DNA from: Dyadobacter fanqingshengii
Lineage (GTDB): Bacteria; Bacteroidota; Bacteroidia; Cytophagales; Spirosomataceae
Reading direction: 5' to 3'
Length of the DNA stretch: 64,000 nucleotides
Assembly: GCF_023822005.2 (NCBI RefSeq)
Contig: NZ_CP098806.1
Location: forward strand, 2,108,001 to 2,172,000
Part shown: piece by piece, positions 11,364-34,048 of the stretch
Layout of the letters: the number at the start of each line of letters is the position of its first letter
Numbering within the stretch: the stretch's first letter is position 1
The notes under the pieces: generated by a model
What the model was told of the DNA's origin: nothing
Database searches by the model: none
The model's input: the letters and a program-made list of their open reading frames with translations, nothing else
Made by a program: the position numbers and the translations under genes

Positions 11364-12422
11364 TTAAGGAAATACGATTGTGAAAATGTACATCATTAAA
11401 TTAACCAGGAGCACAATCGCATACAAGCCATTGGTTTGTCCTTTGTTTAGTGACAGCATAACCGTAAAAACTGAGAGGACAAGCAGGACCATGGATTTCA
11501 TACCCAAGCCAAGTATCAGGGGCAGATCCATGATAGTGCAGACAATCACGACAGTAGGGATACTAAGTCCAATACTGGCTAATGCCGAACCGAGGGCAAG
11601 GTTAATGCTCGTCTGATATTGGCCGCGTCTGGCCGCACGGATAGCAGCAATGCCTTCTGGCAGTAAAATAACGGCTGCAATAGCCACACCCACCAGTGCC
11701 GTGGGTAAGCCGGCTGCGATGATTCCGCTTTCAATTACCGGGGAGAGATTTTTGGCCAGGAAAATAACTACACCTAAACATACGAGCAAAAAACCAAGGC
11801 TGGTCAGTGCTTCGCTTCGGGTAACATCTTTCTCTTGGCCGGAAACTTCTGCCAAAAAATACTTGCGGTGCCTGATGGTTTGCGTAAATATAAAAGACCC
11901 ATAAATGACCAGGCAGCAGACGCCAATCGCAATGAGCTGTGGGGTACTGTAAGAAGGTCCGGCGATACTTGTGGTGAAATTTGGCAATACCAGTGTAAGC
12001 ACCAGAATGGATACCAGGCTTACCAAAGCAATTGTTACACTTTTTGTTTCAAAGCTCTGTTCTTTGAATTTCAATGCTCCTACAAACATACTGATACCCA
12101 GGATGCCGTTCAGAATAAGCATAACGGCTGCAAAAAGCGTGTCCCGTGCATAAGTATCGGCACCGACGCCTCCCGTCAACATGAGTGATACAATAATCGA
12201 AGCTTCCAAAAGCGTTACCGCTACTGCCAGTATGATCGTGCCGTAAGGTTCGCCTACTTTGTGTGCGACCACCTCAGCATGGTGTACCGCCGAAAACACA
12301 CCTGCAATCAAAGCAACCACGGCTAACGAGTTGACTACAAAGCCTGTACCAATAGGCAGCACGAGGTAAAAAACCCAGGCAATAGCGGGTGCTATGTAAC
12401 TCCACTGAAATATTTTTTTCAT
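11364..12422 (-). CDS. chaA: Calcium/proton (ChaA-type) antiporter
   Basis: A 352-residue integral membrane protein of the Ca2+:cation antiporter family with about 11 helices. Both alpha repeats are visible: AVHHAEVVAHKVGEPYGTIILAVAVTLLEASIIVSLML, and LPTALVGVAIAAVILLPEGIAAIRAARRGQYQTSINLALGSALASIGLSIPTV. Each repeat has its acidic residue (TLLEASI and LLPEGIA). It exports Ca2+ or Na+/K+ against protons across the inner membrane. I chose the ATG at 12422 because a hydrophilic MKK precedes the first helix. The frame is open to an earlier ATG at 12458. It heads a run of three genes after TerC. Confidence 0.87.
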   Translation of the reverse strand: MKKIFQWSYIAPAIAWVFYLVLPIGTGFVVNSLAVVALIAGVFSAVHHAEVVAHKVGEPYGTIILAVAVTLLEASIIVSLMLTGGVGADTYARDTLFAAVMLILNGILGISMFVGALKFKEQSFETKSVTIALVSLVSILVLTLVLPNFTTSIAGPSYSTPQLIAIGVCCLVIYGSFIFTQTIRHRKYFLAEVSGQEKDVTRSEALTSLGFLLVCLGVVIFLAKNLSPVIESGIIAAGLPTALVGVAIAAVILLPEGIAAIRAARRGQYQTSINLALGSALASIGLSIPTVVIVCTIMDLPLILGLGMKSMVLLVLSVFTVMLSLNKGQTNGLYAIVLLVNLMMYIFTIVFP

Positions 12423-12496
12423 AACGTTGATGGTAATGGCCGAAATTATACTGACCAATAGTATTTAGTTGGCTTCCATTTTACATAGTTAAAAAG

Positions 12497-13255
12497 CTAT
12501 GGTAGCAGGCGATCTTCACCTTGCTGGTAATGTTCATGGGTTTTTACAGGCGCAGATTTTGATTTGTTCATGCGCATCTGGAACACATCCACCAACAGTG
12601 AAAACGCCATAGAGAAGTAAATGTAGCCCTTTGGAATTTCAAGCCCGAAGCCCTCGCTGACCAAAGAAAAGCCAATCAGTAACAAAAATGACAAAGCGAG
12701 CATTTTGAACGCCGGGTGCCGATTTACAAAATTACTGATTGTTTCAGCAGCTACCAGCATTAATATCACCGTTGCAATAACTGCCACGTACATTACCCAA
12801 ACTTCCTTTACCATTCCGATGGCCGTGATGATTGAATCGATGGAAAAAACCATATCCATGATCAGTATTTGGGTAAGGACCTGCCCAAAAGAGGAAGCTT
12901 TTATCTGTTTACTTTGGTCGCCCTCCTCTCCTTCCATTTTGTGGTAAATCTCAGTAGCGCTTTTGTAGAGCAGAAATAAACCTCCTGCGAGCAAAACAAG
13001 CTCTTTTCCTGAAAACCCTTCACCAAAAACCACAAACAGGTCTTTATCCAGTTTCATAATGAGAGAGATTACAAGCAGAAGGCCAATCCGCATCACACCT
13101 GCGAGTATCAGACCGTACTGCCTGGCTTTCTTTTGCTGGTTTGCAGGAAGCTTTGCAGCGATTATTGATATAAAAATCACGTTGTCGATCCCAAGAACCG
13201 CTTCCAAAGCGACCAGCGACAACAGTGAAACGATAACTTCGAATTCCATGAGCAT
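12497..13255 (-). CDS. TerC family integral membrane protein
   Basis: A 252-residue protein with seven predicted helices. The family signatures LVALEAVLGIDNVIFISIIAAKLP (first helix, GIDN motif) and ILIMDMVFSIDSIITAIGMV (second GxD-type motif) are both present. In E. coli and Bacillus, TerC/Alx/MeeF proteins move Mn2+ or support tellurite resistance and metal loading of exported enzymes. It lies 75 bp ahead of the antiporter gene on the same strand, so the two may share a cation-homeostasis role. The other ter genes are absent. Confidence 0.92.
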   Translation of the reverse strand: MLMEFEVIVSLLSLVALEAVLGIDNVIFISIIAAKLPANQQKKARQYGLILAGVMRIGLLLVISLIMKLDKDLFVVFGEGFSGKELVLLAGGLFLLYKSATEIYHKMEGEEGDQSKQIKASSFGQVLTQILIMDMVFSIDSIITAIGMVKEVWVMYVAVIATVILMLVAAETISNFVNRHPAFKMLALSFLLLIGFSLVSEGFGLEIPKGYIYFSMAFSLLVDVFQMRMNKSKSAPVKTHEHYQQGEDRLLP

Positions 13256-19667: not shown

Positions 19668-20600
19668 ATGAAAAAGCCAGGGTTAACATTTTACAGAGGT
19701 GCGGCGATCATGGTCGTTGTAATTTTTTTGGGACTGCAAATAAGCTCACCTCCCATTGAAAATCCGCCTGTCACGAGCGAGATTGCGGTTCCAGCGGAGG
19801 TGAAGCAGATATTGGAGCGGGCTTGTTATGATTGTCATTCCAATGAAGCCAAGGTGGAATGGTTTGATAAGATCGCCCCGGCGTCATTCCTGGTAGGACA
19901 CGATATTGAGGAGGCGCGCTCGCGATTTAATTTTTCGGAATGGGATAAGAATCCGGCCGGTGTGCAAGAGTTGTTGCTTTGGCAAATGGTGAATGCGATC
20001 GAGCAGGGGAAAATGCCTTTGAAACGTTACCAGCTGGCGCATCCGGGTGGTAAAGTATCTGAATCGGAGCTTGCAGTTTTGAAAAAATATGTAAACACGC
20101 TTCCCGGACGGCATAAGGTGGATACCGCCCTGATTGTTGCGCAAACTTCTTCAATTGAAAAAGTTTCAGCTCAAAAAACGCCGGTTTCCTTAAATGGCAT
20201 TCCCTATTCTGAGGACTACAAAAACTGGAAAATCATCAGCGTCACCGACAAATTCGACGGTGGCAGCATGCGGATCGTTTACGGAAACGATATTATGGTA
20301 AAGGCCATTGAAAAACGCGAACTTCCTTTTCCCGACGGGGCACGGATAGTGAAAGTTGTTTGGGGAAAACAAGCGGAGGATAAGGATGGAAATGTGCTGC
20401 CCGGCAACTTCCAAAATGCTCAGTTCATGATCAAAGACAGCAAAAAATATAGTACAACCGAAGGCTGGGGATTTGCTAAATTCGATGGCCTTGATCTGAA
20501 ACCCGCAGGCAAAACGATCCTCTTCGAGCAAACTTGCGCCAACTGTCACCGGCTCCTGGCACCTGAAAATGATTTTGTATTCAACATTCCGACCAAATAA
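19668..20600 (+). CDS. Haem-binding domain / cytochrome P460 fusion protein
   Basis: A 310-residue exported protein. After an N-terminal hydrophobic anchor (about residues 10-27) comes a haem-binding domain with ACYDCHSNEAK (CxxCH) and WQMVNAIEQGKMPLKRYQLAHPGGKVSESE. From about residue 175 a cytochrome P460 domain begins (YKNWKIISVTDKFDGGSMRIVYGND). It ends with a second CxxCH motif, TCANCHRLLAP. It is therefore a dihaem c-type protein of the periplasmic face, likely for electron transfer or hydroxylamine- or NO-type chemistry as in P460s; the substrate here is unknown. It precedes a haem-less relative at 20611. Confidence 0.88.
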   Translation: MKKPGLTFYRGAAIMVVVIFLGLQISSPPIENPPVTSEIAVPAEVKQILERACYDCHSNEAKVEWFDKIAPASFLVGHDIEEARSRFNFSEWDKNPAGVQELLLWQMVNAIEQGKMPLKRYQLAHPGGKVSESELAVLKKYVNTLPGRHKVDTALIVAQTSSIEKVSAQKTPVSLNGIPYSEDYKNWKIISVTDKFDGGSMRIVYGNDIMVKAIEKRELPFPDGARIVKVVWGKQAEDKDGNVLPGNFQNAQFMIKDSKKYSTTEGWGFAKFDGLDLKPAGKTILFEQTCANCHRLLAPENDFVFNIPTK

Positions 20601-22888: not shown

Positions 22889-23878
22889 TCAGGCCATAAT
22901 TAGCGTTCTTGCAAATCTTAGCAATTCTTGCTTTTCCTGTAATGTGCGGTGCAGGGGCAACTGTGCCAATCCAATCAGTCGCCTGATAATTTCGACGCCG
23001 ACGAATTGATTCATTGTAGCGTAATCGATTTGATATGTGGTGTTGTACCTATCCAGCACAAAATCCACCAATGCCTTGCTTTGCCCGGCGAGGTAAAGGT
23101 GCGCTATCATGACGCCAAGATCAAACTCGGCCCGACCATAAAAGCAGAACTCGGGGTCGATAACTTTTATCCCCTGCGTTGTTTCAAGCCAGCTTCCCGG
23201 ATAAAAATCCCCATGCAAAAGACAGTTTCCGCTGGAAAGATAGATTTCACCCAAATATTTGACCTCCCCTTTCAGCTCGTAATCATTCTTGTAAACAGCC
23301 GCGGCAGCTTGTAATCCTGGCTGGATCGTATCCAGATCAAACCCGTTGTCTTCCATAAACGGATACCGGAATATGTGTTCATGGTTAAGTGCCTTCATGG
23401 CATTGTTCTTAAACAAGTCAGGCGGTGATTTGCGGTAAAAACCATTGTGCAGACTGCTCAGAAAATCTGTCAGCTGCGCAAGTTGAGACATTTCAAGAAC
23501 CTTGGATGAATGATAGAGAACCATAAAATCGCTGGCCTGGCCCAGGTCTTCCAGGGCCATGACATTGTTTTCCTGATCCATGCCAATAAGCCTCGGAGTA
23601 AAATCTGCTATCAACGGGTCCACGCTTGTCGTTTGATAAAATGCCCCTTCGATTAATATCCTGTTGGCGGGAGCACTTACATGCGGGTACTTTTCGACAT
23701 ATCCCCGGGACTGTTTGATGATGAAAGATCTGTCATGGGTCGTTACCCGCAGCACATAATTCATATTCCCTTCACCCGGAACAGAAACCTGACGAACCTG
23801 ATCCTGACTTGATAACCATCCCTGGCTTTGCAGGTAGGTTTCCAGTGAAGCAATATCCTTTGCATCCAGAATGAACAT
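22889..23878 (-). CDS. APH/choline-kinase-fold phosphotransferase, methylthioribose-kinase-like
   Basis: A 329-residue kinase. VPGEGNMNYVLRVTTHDRSFIIKQSRGYVEKYPHVSAPANRILIEGAFY matches the N-terminal lobe of S-methyl-5-thioribose kinase (MtnK). LLHGDFYPGSWL (catalytic HGD) and IKVIDPEFCFYGRAEFDLGVMIAHLYLA match its catalytic and Mg2+ segments (IDPEFxFYGxxxFDxG). MtnK phosphorylates the anomeric carbon of methylthioribose. It follows the DUF547 gene by 20 bp on the same strand and both are divergent to the arsenosugar genes. A ribose carrying an arsenic group at C5 would be a close analogue of methylthioribose, so that is an attractive but unproven substrate. Confidence 0.8.
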   Translation of the reverse strand: MFILDAKDIASLETYLQSQGWLSSQDQVRQVSVPGEGNMNYVLRVTTHDRSFIIKQSRGYVEKYPHVSAPANRILIEGAFYQTTSVDPLIADFTPRLIGMDQENNVMALEDLGQASDFMVLYHSSKVLEMSQLAQLTDFLSSLHNGFYRKSPPDLFKNNAMKALNHEHIFRYPFMEDNGFDLDTIQPGLQAAAAVYKNDYELKGEVKYLGEIYLSSGNCLLHGDFYPGSWLETTQGIKVIDPEFCFYGRAEFDLGVMIAHLYLAGQSKALVDFVLDRYNTTYQIDYATMNQFVGVEIIRRLIGLAQLPLHRTLQEKQELLRFARTLIMA

Positions 23879-23898
23879 TGTATAGCGTTTAGGATAGA

Positions 23899-24681
23899 TT
23901 ATGAATCGAAATTTTTCATTTTTTGCGTCCAGTCATATTCCTTAAATTCCAAGGAGTAATCTGAAAAATCCTGGTTCATGTATTGTTTCAAAATTAATTT
24001 AATGCCTTTATTTCCACCAAAGTCGGCTTTGAACCATTGCAGTATCCGGCTTACCGTCACCTGTTTTTTGAGCGAATCAACTTCTGTATCCGTTTTCAAA
24101 AACGACGATGCAGCGATGTCCAGCTGTTTATCGATTTTACCATAATTATAAAATGCGATTGGCGGACAACTGGTCGCACCACAATTCAGGGCAAAGTGGA
24201 TACGATAATCAATTTTAGAAACCGCAAGTTGTTTAATGATCTTGCCAGGAAAAAATTGAGGCAGATAACCCAAACTTAATTTGGACCGATACCTTCTCAG
24301 GATTCCATGCTCAATCTGGTCAAGACTCAGCCTCAGGCCACCAATCGTGATCAGTTTTTCTTTAAAAATAGCTGGCCTGGTTTTTTTCTCCTTTGTTGCA
24401 AGAATCTGAAAATAGGCGTTGTAAATGTTGATCCAGAATGTTTTACGTGCTTCATCGTTGGACAAGCCAGAGATTAGCGTGTCAGTTTCTATTTTTGCCA
24501 AAGCCTCGCGAAGACTATCCACAGACTGGTCCATTTTTACCTGCAAAAGCAGTTTTCCGGATAGTTCAATCAATTTCTGGTCAGGTTCTTTATTAGCTTG
24601 ACCGGCGACAGGCAGTAAGCCAATTCCCCATAAAGCCAAGACAAGGCCCGCAATCACCATTATCCATTTCATTTTATTCAT
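23899..24681 (-). CDS. DUF547 domain-containing exported protein
   Basis: A 260-residue protein with an N-terminal hydrophobic signal (MKWIMVIAGLVLALWGIGLLPVAG). The DUF547 core is clear: EARKTFWINIYNAYFQILATKEKK, then ITIGGLRLSLDQIEHGILRRYR and RIHFALNCGATSCPPIAFYNYGKIDKQLDIAASSFLK. DUF547 proteins have a papain/transglutaminase-like appearance with the conserved Cys in NCGATSCPP. Their function is unknown. It is first in a two-gene unit with the phosphotransferase. The start could also be the ATG at 24693. DUF547 genes occur with arsenosugar clusters in related bacteria, from memory. Confidence 0.8.
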   Translation of the reverse strand: MNKMKWIMVIAGLVLALWGIGLLPVAGQANKEPDQKLIELSGKLLLQVKMDQSVDSLREALAKIETDTLISGLSNDEARKTFWINIYNAYFQILATKEKKTRPAIFKEKLITIGGLRLSLDQIEHGILRRYRSKLSLGYLPQFFPGKIIKQLAVSKIDYRIHFALNCGATSCPPIAFYNYGKIDKQLDIAASSFLKTDTEVDSLKKQVTVSRILQWFKADFGGNKGIKLILKQYMNQDFSDYSLEFKEYDWTQKMKNFDS

Positions 24682-24825
24682 TGTTAAAACCAATAATCAA
24701 GTATGCGGACTTCAAATGCTACAAAGCCACTCTTTTAACAAAACTTTTTACAACTTACCCTCGTACATACGTACGCGCAGTCAAATTGTTTGGATTGGAT
24801 CAGCTAAGATCGTGCCTATACTTAT

Positions 24826-25518
24826 ATGAAAATCAGCATAATCATTCCCACCTATAATGAAGCCGCTAACATTGCCGGTCTTGTGAAGGATTTGTTCAGA
24901 TATGCTGGCGATCAGCCTGTTGAAGTCATAGTATCGGATGGTGGAAGCAACGATGCCACCATGGAAATCGCAGCCCAGGCCGGTGCCAGTGTGCTCAAAT
25001 CTTCCAAACCGGGCAGAGCAGCACAAATGAATTATGCCTCCAATTTTGCCCATGGAGATGTGCTGTATTTCGTTCACGCGGATGTTGGCATCAATCCGGA
25101 TTATTTCAAAGACATTGAACAAGCAGTATCAGAAGGGTTCGATGCAGGCTGTTACCGCTTCCGCTTTGGTTCAAGCCGCGCTATCCTGAAAATCAATAAT
25201 TACTTTACCCGTTTCGACCGGCTGATGTGCCGCGGCGGTGACCAAACCCTTTTTGTCACCAGAAAGTTGTTTAGCCAGCTCAATGGGTTCAATGAGTATT
25301 ATACCATTATGGAGGACTATGATATCATTATCAGGATCTGGAAAATGGCCCGGTTTAAAATAATCCCCAAAGAAGTGATCGTATCCGCTAGAAAGTATGA
25401 AAACAATAGCTGGCTGCGTGTGCAGCTCGCTAATCTGACCGCTTTCACTATGTTTTATTTGAAAAAAGAACCGGCCAGCATTGCCTTGAAATATAAATCC
25501 ATGCTGGATTACCGCTGA
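24826..25518 (+). CDS. TIGR04283 family arsenosugar biosynthesis glycosyltransferase
   Basis: A 230-residue GT2-fold enzyme. MKISIIIPTYNEAANIAGLVKDLF and VIVSDGGSNDATMEIAAQAGASVLKSSKPGRAAQMNYASNFAHGDVLYFVHADV are exactly the TIGR04283 pattern, with the nucleotide-sugar-binding SDGGSND and the HAD (DxD-like) motif. CRGGDQTLFVTRKLFSQLNGFNEYYTIMEDYDIIIRIWKMARFKII completes it. It probably transfers the arsenic-bearing ribose, or adds to it. It opens the plus-strand cluster with the AhpD-like, ArsS and TIGR04282 genes. Confidence 0.9.
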   Translation: MKISIIIPTYNEAANIAGLVKDLFRYAGDQPVEVIVSDGGSNDATMEIAAQAGASVLKSSKPGRAAQMNYASNFAHGDVLYFVHADVGINPDYFKDIEQAVSEGFDAGCYRFRFGSSRAILKINNYFTRFDRLMCRGGDQTLFVTRKLFSQLNGFNEYYTIMEDYDIIIRIWKMARFKIIPKEVIVSARKYENNSWLRVQLANLTAFTMFYLKKEPASIALKYKSMLDYR

Positions 25519-25585
25519 GATCACGGCGGGCCCAATCTTTATAATTCTGATTCTCGTATATAAATCATCATCTTAACCTGCAATC

Positions 25586-25918
25586 ATGAATACCTACTAT
25601 AACCCGGAAGACCTGAAAAAATTTGGTGCAATTGGTGAGTTCCAACAAGAACTGGCTGATAAATTTTTCTCCTATTACGGCTCGGTATTTGCCGAAGGTG
25701 CGCTCACGGCCCGGGAAAAATCACTGATCGCCCTGGCTGTTTCCCATACCGTACAATGCCCTTACTGCATTGACGCTTACACGACAGACACATTGGAAAA
25801 AGGATGCTCCGAGGCTGAAATGATGGAAGCCGTGCACGTAGCAGCCGCCATACGCAGTGGAGCGACTTTGGTTCATAGTGTTCAGATGATGAACAAAGCA
25901 AAAGATCTTTCAATGTAA
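25586..25918 (+). CDS. Arsenosugar biosynthesis-associated peroxidase-like (AhpD-fold) protein
   Basis: A 110-residue carboxymuconolactone decarboxylase/AhpD-fold protein. ALTAREKSLIALAVSHTVQCPYCIDAYTTDTLEKGCSEAEMMEAVHVAAAIRSGATLVHSVQMMNKA holds the redox pair Cys58/Cys61 in CPYC and the following histidine-rich helix. In arsenosugar gene clusters this family is a constant partner of ArsS. The role may be thiol-based redox handling of an arsenical intermediate. It is 36 bp before arsS. Confidence 0.9.
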   Translation: MNTYYNPEDLKKFGAIGEFQQELADKFFSYYGSVFAEGALTAREKSLIALAVSHTVQCPYCIDAYTTDTLEKGCSEAEMMEAVHVAAAIRSGATLVHSVQMMNKAKDLSM

Positions 25919-25954
25919 GCAGTTGCCTGCATTCCCTGATAAATTAACGGTCCA

Positions 25955-27001
25955 ATGAAATCACTCAAGGCAAGCGGGCATGTGTTGGCCGATTCTGCAT
26001 CGCAGATCAAAACATTGCATGACCAGGTTTTTGAAAATCTGCACCTGCCTCTTTTCGAACAAAAGCTGGAAGCTGCGTCCCTGTTTCCTTTGAAACCGGT
26101 CAAAACAACCACTATGCAGATTAATGTGGGTAAAATGTGCAATCAAGTTTGCAAACATTGCCATGTTGATGCGGGGCCAGACAGGAAGGAAATTATGACC
26201 AGGGATACCATGCAGCAGTGCCTGGACACACTCGCAAATTCTGACATTACCACGGTTGATCTCACAGGTGGGGCTCCGGAAATGAATCCCGACTTTCGCT
26301 GGTTTGTTGCGGAACTTCATGCACTTGGCAAACACGTTATCGTACGCTGCAACCTGACCATTATCGTAGCCAACCCGAAATATAATGACCTGCCCGATTT
26401 CTTCAAGGAACATAAGATTGAAGTGGTCAGCTCCCTCCCTTTTTACAATGCGGATAAAACCGACCGGCAGAGAGGGAAAGGCGTGTTTGAAGATTCTGTA
26501 AAGGCATTGAAGATGCTAAATGCAAGAGGCTATGGCGTAGCAGGCAGCGGGCTTATTCTTAATTTGGTATACAATCCAAACGGAGCATTTATGCCCGCTC
26601 CGCAACAGGGCCTGGAGCGTCAATTTAAGAAGGCTTTATATGATGAATTTGGCATTGTATTCAATGAGCTTTTTGCGATAACCAACATTCCGGTCAGCCG
26701 CTATCTGGACTATCTGATCAGCTCCAATAATTATGACGGCTATATGGAAAAGCTCGTTAATGCCTTCAATCCTGTCGCCGCAACTGGTGTCATGTGCAGA
26801 TCAATGGTGTCTGTTGGCTGGGATGGCTTATTGTATGATTGTGATTTTAACCAAATGCTGGATATGGAATTTGCCCCCGCATACAACCACATCAGCCGTT
26901 ATGACCAGGAGCTGATAAATAATCGTGATATCTTAACTGGTCAGCACTGTTACGGCTGTACGGCAGGCGCAGGTTCGAGCTGCGGAGGGAACACCATCTA
27001 G
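25955..27001 (+). CDS. arsS: Arsenosugar biosynthesis radical SAM protein ArsS
   Basis: A 348-residue radical SAM enzyme. The cluster cysteines are C62, C66 and C69 in GKMCNQVCKHCHVDAGPDR, with the DLTGGAPEMNPDFRWFV strand after it. A C-terminal Cys-rich tail, TGQHCYGCTAGAGSSCGGNTI, is typical of the ArsS family. ArsS joins the 5'-deoxyadenosyl group of SAM to a methylated arsenical, giving an arsenic-C5' adenosine. The methylated arsenical is normally made by ArsM, which is not in this window. It starts 36 bp after the AhpD-like gene and ends 11 bp before the TIGR04282 gene, so all four form one operon. Confidence 0.93.
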   Translation: MKSLKASGHVLADSASQIKTLHDQVFENLHLPLFEQKLEAASLFPLKPVKTTTMQINVGKMCNQVCKHCHVDAGPDRKEIMTRDTMQQCLDTLANSDITTVDLTGGAPEMNPDFRWFVAELHALGKHVIVRCNLTIIVANPKYNDLPDFFKEHKIEVVSSLPFYNADKTDRQRGKGVFEDSVKALKMLNARGYGVAGSGLILNLVYNPNGAFMPAPQQGLERQFKKALYDEFGIVFNELFAITNIPVSRYLDYLISSNNYDGYMEKLVNAFNPVAATGVMCRSMVSVGWDGLLYDCDFNQMLDMEFAPAYNHISRYDQELINNRDILTGQHCYGCTAGAGSSCGGNTI

Positions 27002-27012
27002 CACTTTAATTT

Positions 27013-27630
27013 ATGACCAACGCTGTTATCGTTTTTTTGAAAAATTTGACCCTGGGCAAGGTTAAAACCAGATTGGCAGCGACCGTCGGCGACCAAAAAG
27101 CACTGGAAATTTATGGTCAGCTTGTGGCACATACATTAAAACAGGTCAGCCAATCCGGGCAAATAGCATTGCTTTATTTTTCCGATGATTTACATAGCGA
27201 TCTGCCTCAGTGTGACCAACAATTTGCACTTCGGTTACAAAGAGGGAGCGATTTAGGGGAAAGGATGTCAAACGCCTTTAAAGACGTGTTCGAGACCTCT
27301 GCCCGGAAAGTACTTATCATAGGAACCGACTGCCCTGGCCTGAATGCGTCCATTATCAAAGAGGCGTTCGATGCATTGGATGCGCATGATATTGTTATAG
27401 GACCAGCAACCGATGGTGGCTATTACCTACTTGGCATGAGAAATTTTCAGGGTTTCATCTTTGAAGACATACCATGGAGCACTTCAGAAGTGCTGGAATT
27501 GACGCTTGAAACATGCGCCAGACATTCCCTTACATATTGTTTGCTCAAAGAACTGTCGGACATTGATGATGAAAATGATCTGGATATGTGGAATAGCATG
27601 CAAAAAGATGATCAAACCGGAGAATTATAA
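27013..27630 (+). CDS. TIGR04282 family arsenosugar biosynthesis glycosyltransferase (DUF2064)
   Basis: A 205-residue protein with the DUF2064/TIGR04282 pattern. It starts NAVIVFLKNLTLGKVKTRLAATVGDQKALEIYGQLVAHTL. Later come LQRGSDLGERMSNAFKDVF, KVLIIGTDCPGLNASIIKEAFDALDAHDIVIGPATDGGYYLLGM (GTDCP and PATDGGYYLLG) and a final ELSDIDDENDLD. The fold is close to CofC/MobA-type nucleotidyltransferases, so it could activate a sugar 1-phosphate rather than transfer a sugar. It ends the arsS operon. Confidence 0.9.
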   Translation: MTNAVIVFLKNLTLGKVKTRLAATVGDQKALEIYGQLVAHTLKQVSQSGQIALLYFSDDLHSDLPQCDQQFALRLQRGSDLGERMSNAFKDVFETSARKVLIIGTDCPGLNASIIKEAFDALDAHDIVIGPATDGGYYLLGMRNFQGFIFEDIPWSTSEVLELTLETCARHSLTYCLLKELSDIDDENDLDMWNSMQKDDQTGEL

Positions 27631-29335: not shown

Positions 29336-32300
29336 TTAAAGCGGGTGACCAACAAGCTTCTCGTTCTTATAGATGAAAGCTTTCCCTAAGGCTGCCTTGA
29401 TCTCTTCCAGCCTCAGGGGCTTGGATATATAATGATCCATGCCAGCCTGAATACATGCTTCCTGGTCTTCGCGCATGGCGTTTGCCGTCATTGCCACGAT
29501 GAATGGCTGATCAACCGCATTCTCCCGGATCCAGCGCGTCGCTTCAAGACCGTCCAATTCGGGCATTTGAACATCCATAAACACGACATCGAACCGGTCG
29601 GCCATGGCCATATTATAAGCCTGAATACCGTCCCTGCTGATCAGCGGATCATAACCCAGCTTTTTCAGGATATTGACAAACAACTTTTCATTAATGAGAT
29701 TGTCTTCGGCCATAAGAATATGCAACGGATAAAGCGCTGCGAATTCCGTAGAAAGGTTGGCCGACGGTCGTTCATGGCTCGGAATAATTGTTTCGCGCTG
29801 TGGTTTGAGCTGCATCTGGATCATCCTGCCCAGGTCATTGTGCCGGACAGGCTTGGTTAACACAGCTGCAAACAAGTCCTTGCGGTTCCTGCCGGAATCA
29901 TCCCCCACTGAGCTGAGCAGGAAAATCGGAAGTGACGGGTATTTTTTCTTGATTTTGGTTGCAAGCTCGATTCCATCCATTTCGGGCATTTGCTGATCGG
30001 TGATGATAAGGTTAAAGACAGATCCGCTTTCCAGAATTTTCAAAGCCTGATCTCCTGATGAAGCCAGGGCCGGTATGAGTTTCCACTGCTCCATCTGCAA
30101 CTGCAAAATCCGCAGGTTCGTCATGTTGTCATCCACCAGTAACACGGATTTCCCCTCATTTCCTGTTGAATTTAAAAGAACGTACTGCCTGGTCGCCAGT
30201 AAGCTTGCCTTTGCAATAATTGTAAAATAGAAACAAGTTCCCTTGTTTACCGTGCTTTCTACCCCGATCTCCCCTCCCATCAAATTCACAAGCCGTTGGC
30301 TGATGATCAAACCCAAGCCCGTACCGCCGTACTTTCTGGTATGCGAAGAATCCACTTGTGAAAAAGCTACGAAGAGTTTGTGAAGCTTGTCTTCGGGAAT
30401 TCCAATCCCGGTGTCATAGATCGCGAAACGAAGTTCTATATCCTGATCATTCAATGTCTTCGAAAGCAGCACGCTGATGAAAATCTCTCCCTGATGCGTA
30501 AACTTGATTGCATTACCAACCAGGTTGAGCAGGATCTGTCTTAATCGTTGGCTGTCGCCGATGATCTGGCTGGGGACCTGAGGGTCGATTTCATAAACCA
30601 GATCAAGGCCTATTGCTGCTGCTTTTGTAGAAAACAAGTCTAATACCGCCTCAATGCATTCCCTAAGATCAAAACTGATCATTTCCAGTTCCATATTCCC
30701 GGACTCTATCTTCGAAAAGTCAAGTATGTCGTTGATAACCGTCAATAAGCTGTCGCCGCTGTTAATGATCGTCTCGGTGTATTCGGCTTGTTCCTCGGTC
30801 TGCTCCGTTTGAGAAAGCAGCATGGCCATTCCAATGACACCATTCATCGGCGTGCGGATTTCATGGCTCATTGTTGCCAAGAACACGCTTTTTGCCATGT
30901 TGGCTTTTTCGGCTTCCTGCCTCGCCAGTTGTTCTTGCTTGTTCTGAGTTTGCAATTTCTCATTCAGGTCGAGCAGCCGGTCTGACTGGCTTAGCAGTTC
31001 GTATTTTTGTTTAATGATCTCCTTTGTCCTTTCTTCGACCTGGTGCACCAGCATCTCTTTCTGCTCTCTTAAAACCCGCATGCGCAACCGGTAAATGATG
31101 TAGATTAAACCAAATCCCAGCGCAACCGCCAGCACCCGGAACCAGAGCGTTTGCCAGAAAGGCGGGGCAATGTGAATCTTCACTTGCACGCCTTCATTAT
31201 TCCAAACGCCATCATTATTGGCTGCCTTTACCTGAAATACGTAGTCCCCCGGGTCCAGATTTGTATAGGTTGCTTTCCGGGTCGTTCCGCTGTAAATCCA
31301 GTCAGCGTCAAAGCCCTTCAACTGATAGGCATATTGATTCTTTTCCGGCATGGTATAGTTGAGAGCCGCGAATTCAAACGATATAACCGAATGTTTGTAG
31401 GTTAGATTGATTTCTTTCGCCTGCGTAATGTGTGACGTGAGAGGCGAGCCGGGAGCAATGGGTGCTTGTTTGTTAAAAAGCAAGAAATCGGTCAGAAAAA
31501 CGGGCGGAATAAATGTGTTGTCAACCAGCCTGTCGGGGAAGAATGTTATGAACCCTCTCACACCTCCAAAAAACATTTCTCCGTCCGCAGTTTTGAAAAA
31601 AGAATTGCTTTTGAACTCATTGCCCAGCAATCCATCTGCTCTGCCGAAATTGCGGAAAGTTATTGTTCTGGGGTCAAATTCACAGATTCCGTTATTGGTG
31701 CTCAGCCATAAGTGGCCTTTCTTATCTTCCATGATCCCGTAGATCACGTTACTGGATAGGCCGTGCTTTTCGGTGTAAGAAGTAAAAGTTCTTTTCATCG
31801 GATCGAAACGATTGAGGCCGCCCCCTAATGTTCCTATCCACAAGATTCCGTCACTGGTCTGCTGAATGGTCTGGATTTTATTATGGGAAATAGAGTTCCG
31901 GTCTTTTATGTCTGTCTGAAACCTTGTGAAAGTTTTTTTTAGCGGATCAAACAGATTTAAACCCTCGAATGTACCCACCCAAATCTTCCCGGCCCGATCC
32001 TGAAAAACCTTGGTGACAATGTCTCCGCTGATGCTTGTGCTGTCCAGCGGATTATGTCGATAGTGCTTTATCTTGCCAGTATTTACATCATAAAATTCCA
32101 GGCCGCCTTTCCACGTGCCCAGCCATATTCCACCGTTGCGATCTTTAAAAATGTTGTTTACATCCGCGGTGGCAAGGCTTAGAGAGTCATTCGGAATTGG
32201 CAAGTGGTGCACATATTGTCCGGTCCGGATATTGAAAAAATCAAATCCACCCATATGATAGGCCAGGCCGAGCACATCCTTTGAGATATTGATAATGGAG

Positions 32301-33529
32301 ATTACGTAGTCGTTGCTGGGCGAGTTACTATTGGTCGCGCTGTGCTTGAAAGACGTAAACTTTCTGGTTTTTCGGTCAAAAAGATTTAGTCCTCCCCCGT
32401 CCGTCCCGATCCAGATCTTGTCAGCGTCTGCATCGCCACATATAGCGAGCACCAGATTGTTGCTCAGACTGTTGACACTATAATTATTTTTCCGGTATGA
32501 AGTAAATTTCTTGCCGAAACGCGGACGAAAGTTGACCCCGCCTGCATAAGTTCCGATCCATAAATTATCAATCCGATCCCGATAGATACAATAAATTGAA
32601 TTGTCGCTGATGGACGTGTTGTCCTCGTCAATATGCCGGATCCTGGTGAAGTTGCCTGTTGATTTGTTGTAAACGCTGATCCCCCCATTCTCCGTGCCTA
32701 TCCAAAGCCTGCCGTCGCGATTCTGGGTAATGGATAGAATGTCGTTGTGGGATATGCTCAGCGAATCCGAGGGATTATGCACAAAAGTCCGAAAAGAATT
32801 GGTTTCAGGCTTGAAAAGCGAAAGGCCTCCACCATGCGTGCCGACCCAGATGTTGCCCGCCGGATCCCTGTAAAGAGCCTTGATGTAGCTGGATTGGAGA
32901 CTTTTAGCATCATTTCCCTTGACATACGCTATATACTTAAGTGTTTCGGGATCGAACCAGTACAATCCATATTCTGTGCCTATCCAAAATTTCCCATCGG
33001 CGTCCTCGATGATCCTGGAAATATTGGCAGGTGGCTTGTATTTATTTTGATTGCGATCGACGCGTAAGAATATGCGTGAAGTACCTTTTTCGGGATCGAG
33101 CAGTAGTAATCCATTGTTTGTACCCAGCCACATTCTGCCTTTGCTATCCTCGAATATATCGTTGATACTTCGCCTGTTGGCAGCATTAAAATAATGTCGG
33201 AAGTGCGACGTTGCCCGATCAAACCGGTTGAGGCCGCTTGACGTCGCAATCCACAAATCTCCCTTTTTATCTTCCAGAATATCCTGAATATAGCTGTCAT
33301 CAATGCTGTTGCTATCCGCCTTATCATGCTTATAGTGCTTGAATGTATATCCATCATACATATTTAACCCATCATCGCTGCCAAACCACATAAAGCCATT
33401 TTTGTCCATTAAAATAGACCCGACGTGGTTTTGGGAAAGTCCATTATTGGTGCTAAGCTGCCGAAAGCCAGAACTCTGCCCAATTACAATCGATGGAAGA
33501 AAAAGCAACAGGAATAGGAATAGCTTCAT
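29336..33529 (-). CDS. Hybrid two-component sensor with Reg_prop propeller and two receivers
   Basis: A 1397-residue protein. A signal peptide ([16 protein letters not shown]) leads into two seven-bladed Reg_prop propellers, seen as repeated GxxWIGTxxGGLNxFD units to about residue 670. A Y_Y_Y domain follows ([42 protein letters not shown]), then one membrane helix (about 795-814) and a coiled coil. HisKA has His889 ([11 protein letters not shown]), followed by HATPase (GTGLGLIIS). Two receivers carry Asp1178 and Asp1319 ([18 protein letters not shown]). There is no Hpt or AraC output domain, so phosphate must go to another protein. Such sensors usually recognise polysaccharide fragments in the periplasm. 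A start at 33577 is possible but lacks a signal peptide there. Confidence 0.93.
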
Positions 33530-34048
33530 GGAGGGGATTTGTTGTATCCGGTAAAGATGTCGCACCAGGCTGCTCACATGAATTAAAAATTTAATTCTCC
33601 CGGCGTCTCAACACTTAGCGACCAAATTACTTCTACTTTATTTAAATTGACATTACTTAAAGTCCGCATTGTTTTGATTCACTGGCTAACCCATGCAATA
33701 TGGATTTTTTGGCTATTCAGAAGCACAACCCACGATTTAGCAAAACTGATTATCCATACTGACTATTGAAAGGTAGCCATAATTAATGGATAGTCAACAT
33801 GGATTACACCGTGCTGTATATGAAGTAGTTCTACGAAACAAACAAACTGTCCCGCCTACATGCATCGATCACATGCTTCTGACGCGCGGCGGTAGAAAAG
33901 AACAAAATATGGCACGAACCTTCCTAGATTGACTTGTAGCAACATTTATAATTATAGTGTCGCTTTCTACCCGCATAACTGTCGCAATCGCACAGCACTA
34001 AGTATCGTTTAGTGTGCGAATTTTGTATTTCAATCAACTGACAGAATC
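33530..34048. other. 519-base intergenic region with a weak promoter-like dyad
   Basis: No gene is visible. TATCCAT (33751-33757) and TGACTAT (33760-33766) are mirrored by ATGGATA (33786-33792) and ATAGTCA (33790-33796), a nested inverted repeat. TGGCACGAACCTTCC at 33910-33924 looks like a sigma-54 -24 element with a poor -12. Both are possible control sites for the divergent genes at 33529 and 34049. Confidence 0.3.

Follow-up and report, generated by a model that had tools for sequence, protein, structure and literature searches.

Arsenosugars are abundant organoarsenicals in algae and seaweed. A stretch of 64,000 nucleotides from Dyadobacter fanqingshengii (contig NZ_CP098806.1, positions 2,108,001 to 2,172,000; genome of 6.27 Mb in 2 contigs), called here the window, carries a six-gene arsenosugar cassette. 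Its outermost gene encodes a kinase resembling 5-methylthioribose (MTR) kinase, which lies near the gene for the radical S-adenosylmethionine (SAM) enzyme ArsS, reportedly the subject of a study by Cheng et al. in 2021. The open reading frames (ORFs), coordinates and family names of the preliminary description of this locus all stand, with TIGR04167, TIGR04169, TIGR04283 and TIGR04282 over their NCBIfam cut-offs. The ORF strands confirm two divergent units, DUF547 and kinase (minus strand, 22889-24693) and GT2-AhpD-ArsS-TIGR04282 (plus strand, 24826-27630):

22889-23878, minus strand: MTR-kinase-like kinase, a proposed 5-substituted-ribose 1-kinase (ORF; TIGR01767, 129 bits)
23899-24693, minus strand: DUF547 protein, one unit with the kinase (PF04784, 102 bits)
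24694-24825, strand unassigned: divergent promoter region, holding the near-palindrome CGTACATACG at 24762-24771
24826-25518, plus strand: TIGR04283 GT2-type glycosyltransferase (215 bits, NCBIfam cut-off 182)
25586-25918, plus strand: TIGR04169 AhpD/CMD-like arsenosugar-associated protein (190 bits, cut-off 120)
25955-27001, plus strand: ArsS radical SAM enzyme, TIGR04167 (438 bits, cut-off 300)
27013-27630, plus strand: TIGR04282/DUF2064 protein, a CofC-like putative nucleotidyltransferase (210 bits, cut-off 134)

Four of the five families of the NCBIfam arsenosugar cluster (TIGR04167, TIGR04169, TIGR04282, TIGR04283 and ArsM NF038099) are thus present, and the window adds the unit of DUF547 and kinase. 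No ArsM is seen: as first described, neither ArsM nor a nucleosidase is found among the 30 ORFs, a subset of those in the window, that were scanned with Pfam. The TIGR04282 protein keeps the GxxKTR motif (as GKVKTR). Its likeness to sugar-phosphate nucleotidyltransferases is borne out by its relation to CofC (39.5 bits against F420_cofC, under the cut-off of 105) and to PDB entry 3cgx (E 3.9e-27), itself a putative nucleotide-diphospho-sugar transferase; synthesis of a nucleoside diphosphate (NDP) sugar is its presumed activity. The DUF547 protein, which adjoins the kinase in all seven ArsS cassettes compared (the window and loci L066-L071), has no PDB relative by sequence search at E ≤1. The near-palindrome recurs in L066-L070 and, with one changed base, in L071. 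It is a possible shared operator of both units, though the match count makes it a weak one: when one mismatch is tolerated, the window contains 5 matches to CGTACATACG where 2.3 would be expected, a number reached in 8 of 100 shuffles, and the 24762-24771 site accounts for four of these matches.

The kinase and its C5 pocket

The kinase has a protein-kinase-like fold and is closest to MTR kinases by both fold and sequence. It is 22-26% identical over the aligned part to the MtnK enzymes of B. subtilis (PDB 2olc, 2pul) and A. thaliana (2pyw). Against TIGR01767 (S-methyl-5-thioribose kinase) it scores 129 bits, related but below the equivalog threshold of 275, and four of its relatives score 111-135. 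The closest kinase loci among the best 80 of 561 relatives are six from Dyadobacter (71-77% identity), and a Pedobacter-named protein is 67% identical.

The motifs originally quoted for the kinase are all in its sequence (KQSRGYVEKYP from residue 55, HGD at 222-224, IDPEFCFYG at 240-248). Passages of PMC2194712 describe the residues of MTR kinase that bind Mg and the MTR ribose, together with the GXGNXN G-loop, HGD, IDXEF and RR motifs. The window kinase carries all four motifs, and the Mg- and ribose-binding residues are retained throughout the alignment of 93 kinase rows. The Asp of HGD, the IDxEF motif and the twin arginine are present in 93/93 rows, the His of HGD in 91/93 and the G-loop glycines in 92/93 and 90/93. 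By contrast with MtnK, there is no Trp at the positions aligned with the W-loop Trp (V67 by profile, A69 by phmmer), nor anywhere in columns 61-70 of the 93 rows; the same passages term this Trp semi-conserved. His168, invariant in 93/93 rows, aligns with Leu180 of MTR kinases in both alignments and stands where MTR kinases have Leu180/Val184, while the third pocket residue, Leu345, is retained as Leu304. As aligned, the C5 pocket is different from that of MTR kinases. The initial classification as an MtnK-type kinase therefore holds for the fold and the G-loop, HGD, IDxEF and RR motifs, but not for the equivalog cut-off or the W-loop Trp; the activity that defines MtnK is phosphorylation of MTR at O1.

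The fold and catalytic residues would also suit an ordinary methionine-salvage MTR kinase that lies beside arsS by chance. This is very improbable, given a score less than half the MtnK cut-off, the missing Trp, the replacement of one hydrophobic pocket residue by His (Leu345 is nevertheless kept), and linkage to TIGR04283 and nucleoside hydrolase. A check for full methionine salvage, raised in the preliminary description, came out negative: none of 13 kinase genomes, the present one among them, yielded MtnA (TIGR00512), whereas the control was positive in 9 of 14 known genomes. A role in methionine salvage is therefore unlikely. The protein might instead be, like PsiK and LxmK, with which it shares the fold, a kinase for some other small molecule, with an unrelated function and the acceptor or another metabolite as its substrate. 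This reading is improbable too, since PsiK, in the portion of PMC11808438 that treats it, lacks the twin arginine that is invariant here, and since the commonest neighbour of the kinase is a nucleoside hydrolase.

Gene partners of the kinase

TIGR04283 is a better partner of the kinase than ArsS. Forty-nine genomes of the best 80 relatives, thus drawn by similarity to the query, were searched for both. TIGR04283 is over its cut-off in 48 of the 49 versus 14 of 50 kinase-less genomes of the class (p = 3e-14, for two samples chosen in different ways, each without phylogenetic independence). ArsS is found in 18 of the 49, and 30 of the 31 genomes without it have TIGR04283. Within the genus (48 genomes, the present one included), the 10 genomes with TIGR04283 are exactly the 10 with the kinase; the eight with ArsS are among them, and in the two ArsS-free ones ~0.9 kb separates TIGR04283 from the kinase. 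Across the class (61 genomes), TIGR04283 occurs in 23 genomes, 17 with ArsS and the remaining 6 all with the kinase, and in none of the 33 genomes that lack both. This pattern suggests that the kinase feeds the sugar-transfer step of the cassette with or without ArsS. The name TIGR04283 may not mean arsenosugar synthesis everywhere, since 42 of the 132 TIGR04283 genomes in a phylum sample of 247 have no ArsS.

Loci L081, L090 and L107, from the same contigs as L049, L050 and L051, were retained in the 93-row residue counts and omitted from the set of 90 distinct kinase loci. ArsS lies within 10 kb of the kinase in seven of these 90, namely six Dyadobacter records and the window. In a quick tree of the 90 kinases the seven form one clade (SH-aLRT 99), and the next branch (84) is D. 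jejuensis, in which TIGR04282 and TIGR04283 lie close to the kinase and the genome has no ArsS; the linkage of kinase and ArsS therefore probably originated a single time. Inside the genus it is strict, as all eight ArsS genomes have the kinase 2.2-2.8 kb away, two genomes have the kinase only and none has ArsS only. The six genes form an intact block in L066 (with near-copies L069 and L070), L067, L068 and L071 as in the window, while the gene that adjoins the kinase on its outer side varies; farther out, the LytTR/histidine-kinase pair of the window is common to L066, L069 and L070. Four loci (L066, L067, L069 and L070), three of them with identical kinases, have an arsenic operon close to TIGR04282. 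ACR3 and ArsR clusters are present in all four and ArsN2 in three; these families were scored in L066 only (ACR3 439 bits, cut-off 283), the other loci being assigned by shared clusters. Family-library scans covered cluster representatives, and other loci were labelled by purpose-built profiles or BLAST clusters.

A nucleoside hydrolase is the same-strand neighbour of the kinase in 54 of the 90 loci (PF01156 confirmed in two representatives). In many of these kinase-linked hydrolases (e.g. L050:8259-9221 and relatives) the DxDxxxDD metal motif has a long spacing, such as DTD-13-DD, which exceeds the canonical one; 35 of 58 fit the search expression. Several start with a signal-like peptide, judged by eye, as in secreted proteins. 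SusC/SusD-type proteins, also read by eye, stand at many kinase loci, and a YnjB-type ATP-binding cassette (ABC) importer at 13 of 90. In L053:5006-8540 a YnjB-type (PRK11622) substrate-binding protein, permeases and an ATPase precede the hydrolase and kinase, a possible lead to the transporter substrate.

Other neighbours are rarer. A radical SAM protein directly 3' of the kinase in L126 (10991-11941), L113, L124 and L130 (three Algoriphagus and one Flavobacteriales metagenome-assembled genome) may be another enzyme that makes the 5-substituent; the L126 protein scores under every listed NCBIfam cut-off. An ADP-ribosylglycohydrolase-family protein 3' of the kinase in L055 (8225-9529; PF03747 scored there), L056 and L059 is a possible other source of free ribose. 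In L044:554-2460 (family f18) a phosphorylase with MTAP as its best NCBIfam match is followed by a distant MTR-kinase-like gene, and both score below cut-off, the kinase against MtnK; this genome has TIGR04283 and no ArsS over cut-off. Elsewhere in the window, 19668-20600 encodes a fusion of a haem-binding domain (PF14376) with cytochrome P460 (PF16694), 11364-13255 holds adjoining genes for a Na/Ca exchanger (PF01699) and TerC (PF03741), and 29336-33577 encodes a protein of 1413 amino acids that by unscanned reading resembles a hybrid two-component sensor, with histidine-kinase and response-regulator parts besides an N-terminal part like a beta-propeller.

Candidate routes to an activated 5-substituted ribose

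From the computed identities, fold, conserved catalytic residues, gene linkage and co-occurrence we infer a substrate, an order of steps and activities for the TIGR04282 and TIGR04283 proteins. The proposal, whose chances we consider evenly balanced, is that the kinase phosphorylates C1 of a C5-substituted ribose, acting with TIGR04282 and TIGR04283, and that in this genus the sugar is arsenical, because ArsS and an ars operon are present. ArsS would make 5'-deoxy-5'-arsenical adenosine, from which a nucleosidase encoded elsewhere in the genome would remove adenine; the kinase would then yield arsenoribose 1-phosphate, TIGR04282 would convert it to an NDP-sugar, and TIGR04283 would transfer the activated arsenoribose to an acceptor. 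Phosphorylation at C1 followed by TIGR04282 and TIGR04283 fits the linkage data. The genome encodes two PF01048 proteins (at 2792614 and 2289932) and two nucleoside hydrolases (at 603789 and 4010867) as candidates for the nucleosidase; none of them lies within 100 kb of the cassette.

A second version of the cassette points to the same intermediate. A purine nucleoside phosphorylase (PNP) is present in 9 of 104 ArsS loci. All nine belong to f7, the family that includes Flavobacterium, and represent 9 of the 12 f7 genomes with ArsS. PNP stands directly 3' of TIGR04282 in eight of the nine loci, five of which have a rhodanese of the NF045521 kind (scored in L192) and eight an ArsM cluster (NF038099 scored in L209 only, with PNP). 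In L055 and L133 the kinase, rhodanese, TIGR04282, PNP, DUF547 and TIGR04283 occur together, with no ArsS nearby and none over cut-off in the genome. In f7 ArsS operons PNP, in place of nucleosidase and kinase, would give the same sugar phosphate; hydrolase plus kinase, or phosphorylase, would be two ways to one 5-substituted ribose 1-phosphate. Salvage of 5'-methylthioadenosine and 5'-deoxyadenosine, by nucleosidase and kinase or by phosphorylase as outlined in part of PMC6302742, likewise offers two ways of turning a 5'-modified nucleoside into a 5-modified ribose 1-phosphate. There, however, MtnA isomerises the sugar phosphate, whereas here activation and transfer would follow. Adenosylation of arsenic by a radical SAM enzyme during arsenosugar synthesis is mentioned in a passage of PMC12159101 with reference to its cited source. 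The later steps appear in outline only in the relevant passages of PMC10456119 and PMC4632732, as nucleosidase action followed by glycosidation or coupling; the former proposes nucleosidase and later coupling for an algal arsenolipid. Among the papers listed by searches of the open-access PMC library (subscription journals lay outside the search), none has a title or opening abstract concerned with an MTR-kinase-like enzyme in arsenosugar synthesis.

Several observations weigh against this proposal. In the phylum sample, ArsS is over its NCBIfam cut-off in 104 genomes and the kinase (E ≤1e-8) is present in 18, in a close form in 13 (44-100% identity) and a distant one in 5 (27-33%). In regions of up to 20 kb around all 104 ArsS genes (some end at contig ends; the profile labelled ArsS in 98), the kinase is found once, in the window itself. 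Across the class the two are independent (ArsS in 3 of 11 kinase genomes vs 17 of 50 others, p = 1.0). The recurrence near arsS expected in the preliminary description thus holds in the genus but not in the class or the phylum sample. The congener G299 has a second pair of ArsS and TIGR04283 on another contig, with no kinase found there. The TIGR04283 rule has exceptions in the class (G076 and G111 have the kinase and no TIGR04283) and fails outside it, where 35 of 100 genomes that lack both ArsS and this kinase have TIGR04283, five of them with a distant MTR-kinase-like gene. In the whole sample of 247 genomes, kinase and TIGR04283 show only a weak association (10 of 13 kinase genomes vs 122 of 234 others, p = 0.09). 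The co-occurrence counts lack phylogenetic independence, and similarity to the query governed the choice of the 49 genomes. In this genus the kinase has no linked nucleosidase, and ArsM of the L209 type (NF038099) was not found in any of the 48 congeners (E ≤1e-20), in a set without a positive control and with other ArsM types outside the search. The two scored PNPs (L055, L209) resemble the inosine/guanosine type. Only 13 of 57 DUF2064 proteins of hydrolase loci have GxxKTR; since most lack it, the activation step there is doubtful. The route of kinase, NDP-activation and glycosyl transfer, as first suggested, is favoured by the TIGR04283 co-occurrence and the conserved catalytic residues, while the independence of ArsS across the class tells against it and its substrate is one that we infer.

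A less probable but serious alternative is the same step on a non-arsenical sugar: kinase, nucleoside hydrolase, TIGR04282 and TIGR04283 would use another 5-modified, or an unmodified, ribose from scavenged nucleosides, with the ArsS link in Dyadobacter a local recruitment or a coincidence. The 31 ArsS-free kinase genomes, nearly all with TIGR04283, would be explained in this way, as would the SusC/SusD-type proteins, the importer and the secreted-like hydrolases, and the pocket residues are identical in ArsS-linked and ArsS-free kinases. The arsenical reading is favoured instead by the presence of the kinase in 8/8 ArsS genomes of the genus, by the six-gene block kept intact beside a varying neighbour, and by ACR3 and ArsR near the cassette in four records. 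It is unlikely, though worth stating, that Bacteroidota with the kinase and without ArsS scavenge algal or cyanobacterial arsenosugars or arsenonucleosides, by outer-membrane uptake, riboside cleavage by (often apparently secreted) proteins of the nucleoside-hydrolase family, ABC import and phosphorylation to arsenoribose 1-phosphate for TIGR04282 and TIGR04283. ArsS and the kinase would then be alternative sources, made and salvaged, of one organoarsenical sugar pool.

For the arsenosugar pathway, the proposal offers concrete candidates for each step after ArsS: PNP, or a nucleosidase and the MTR-kinase-like kinase, may produce the sugar phosphate, which TIGR04282 and then TIGR04283 would activate and transfer.

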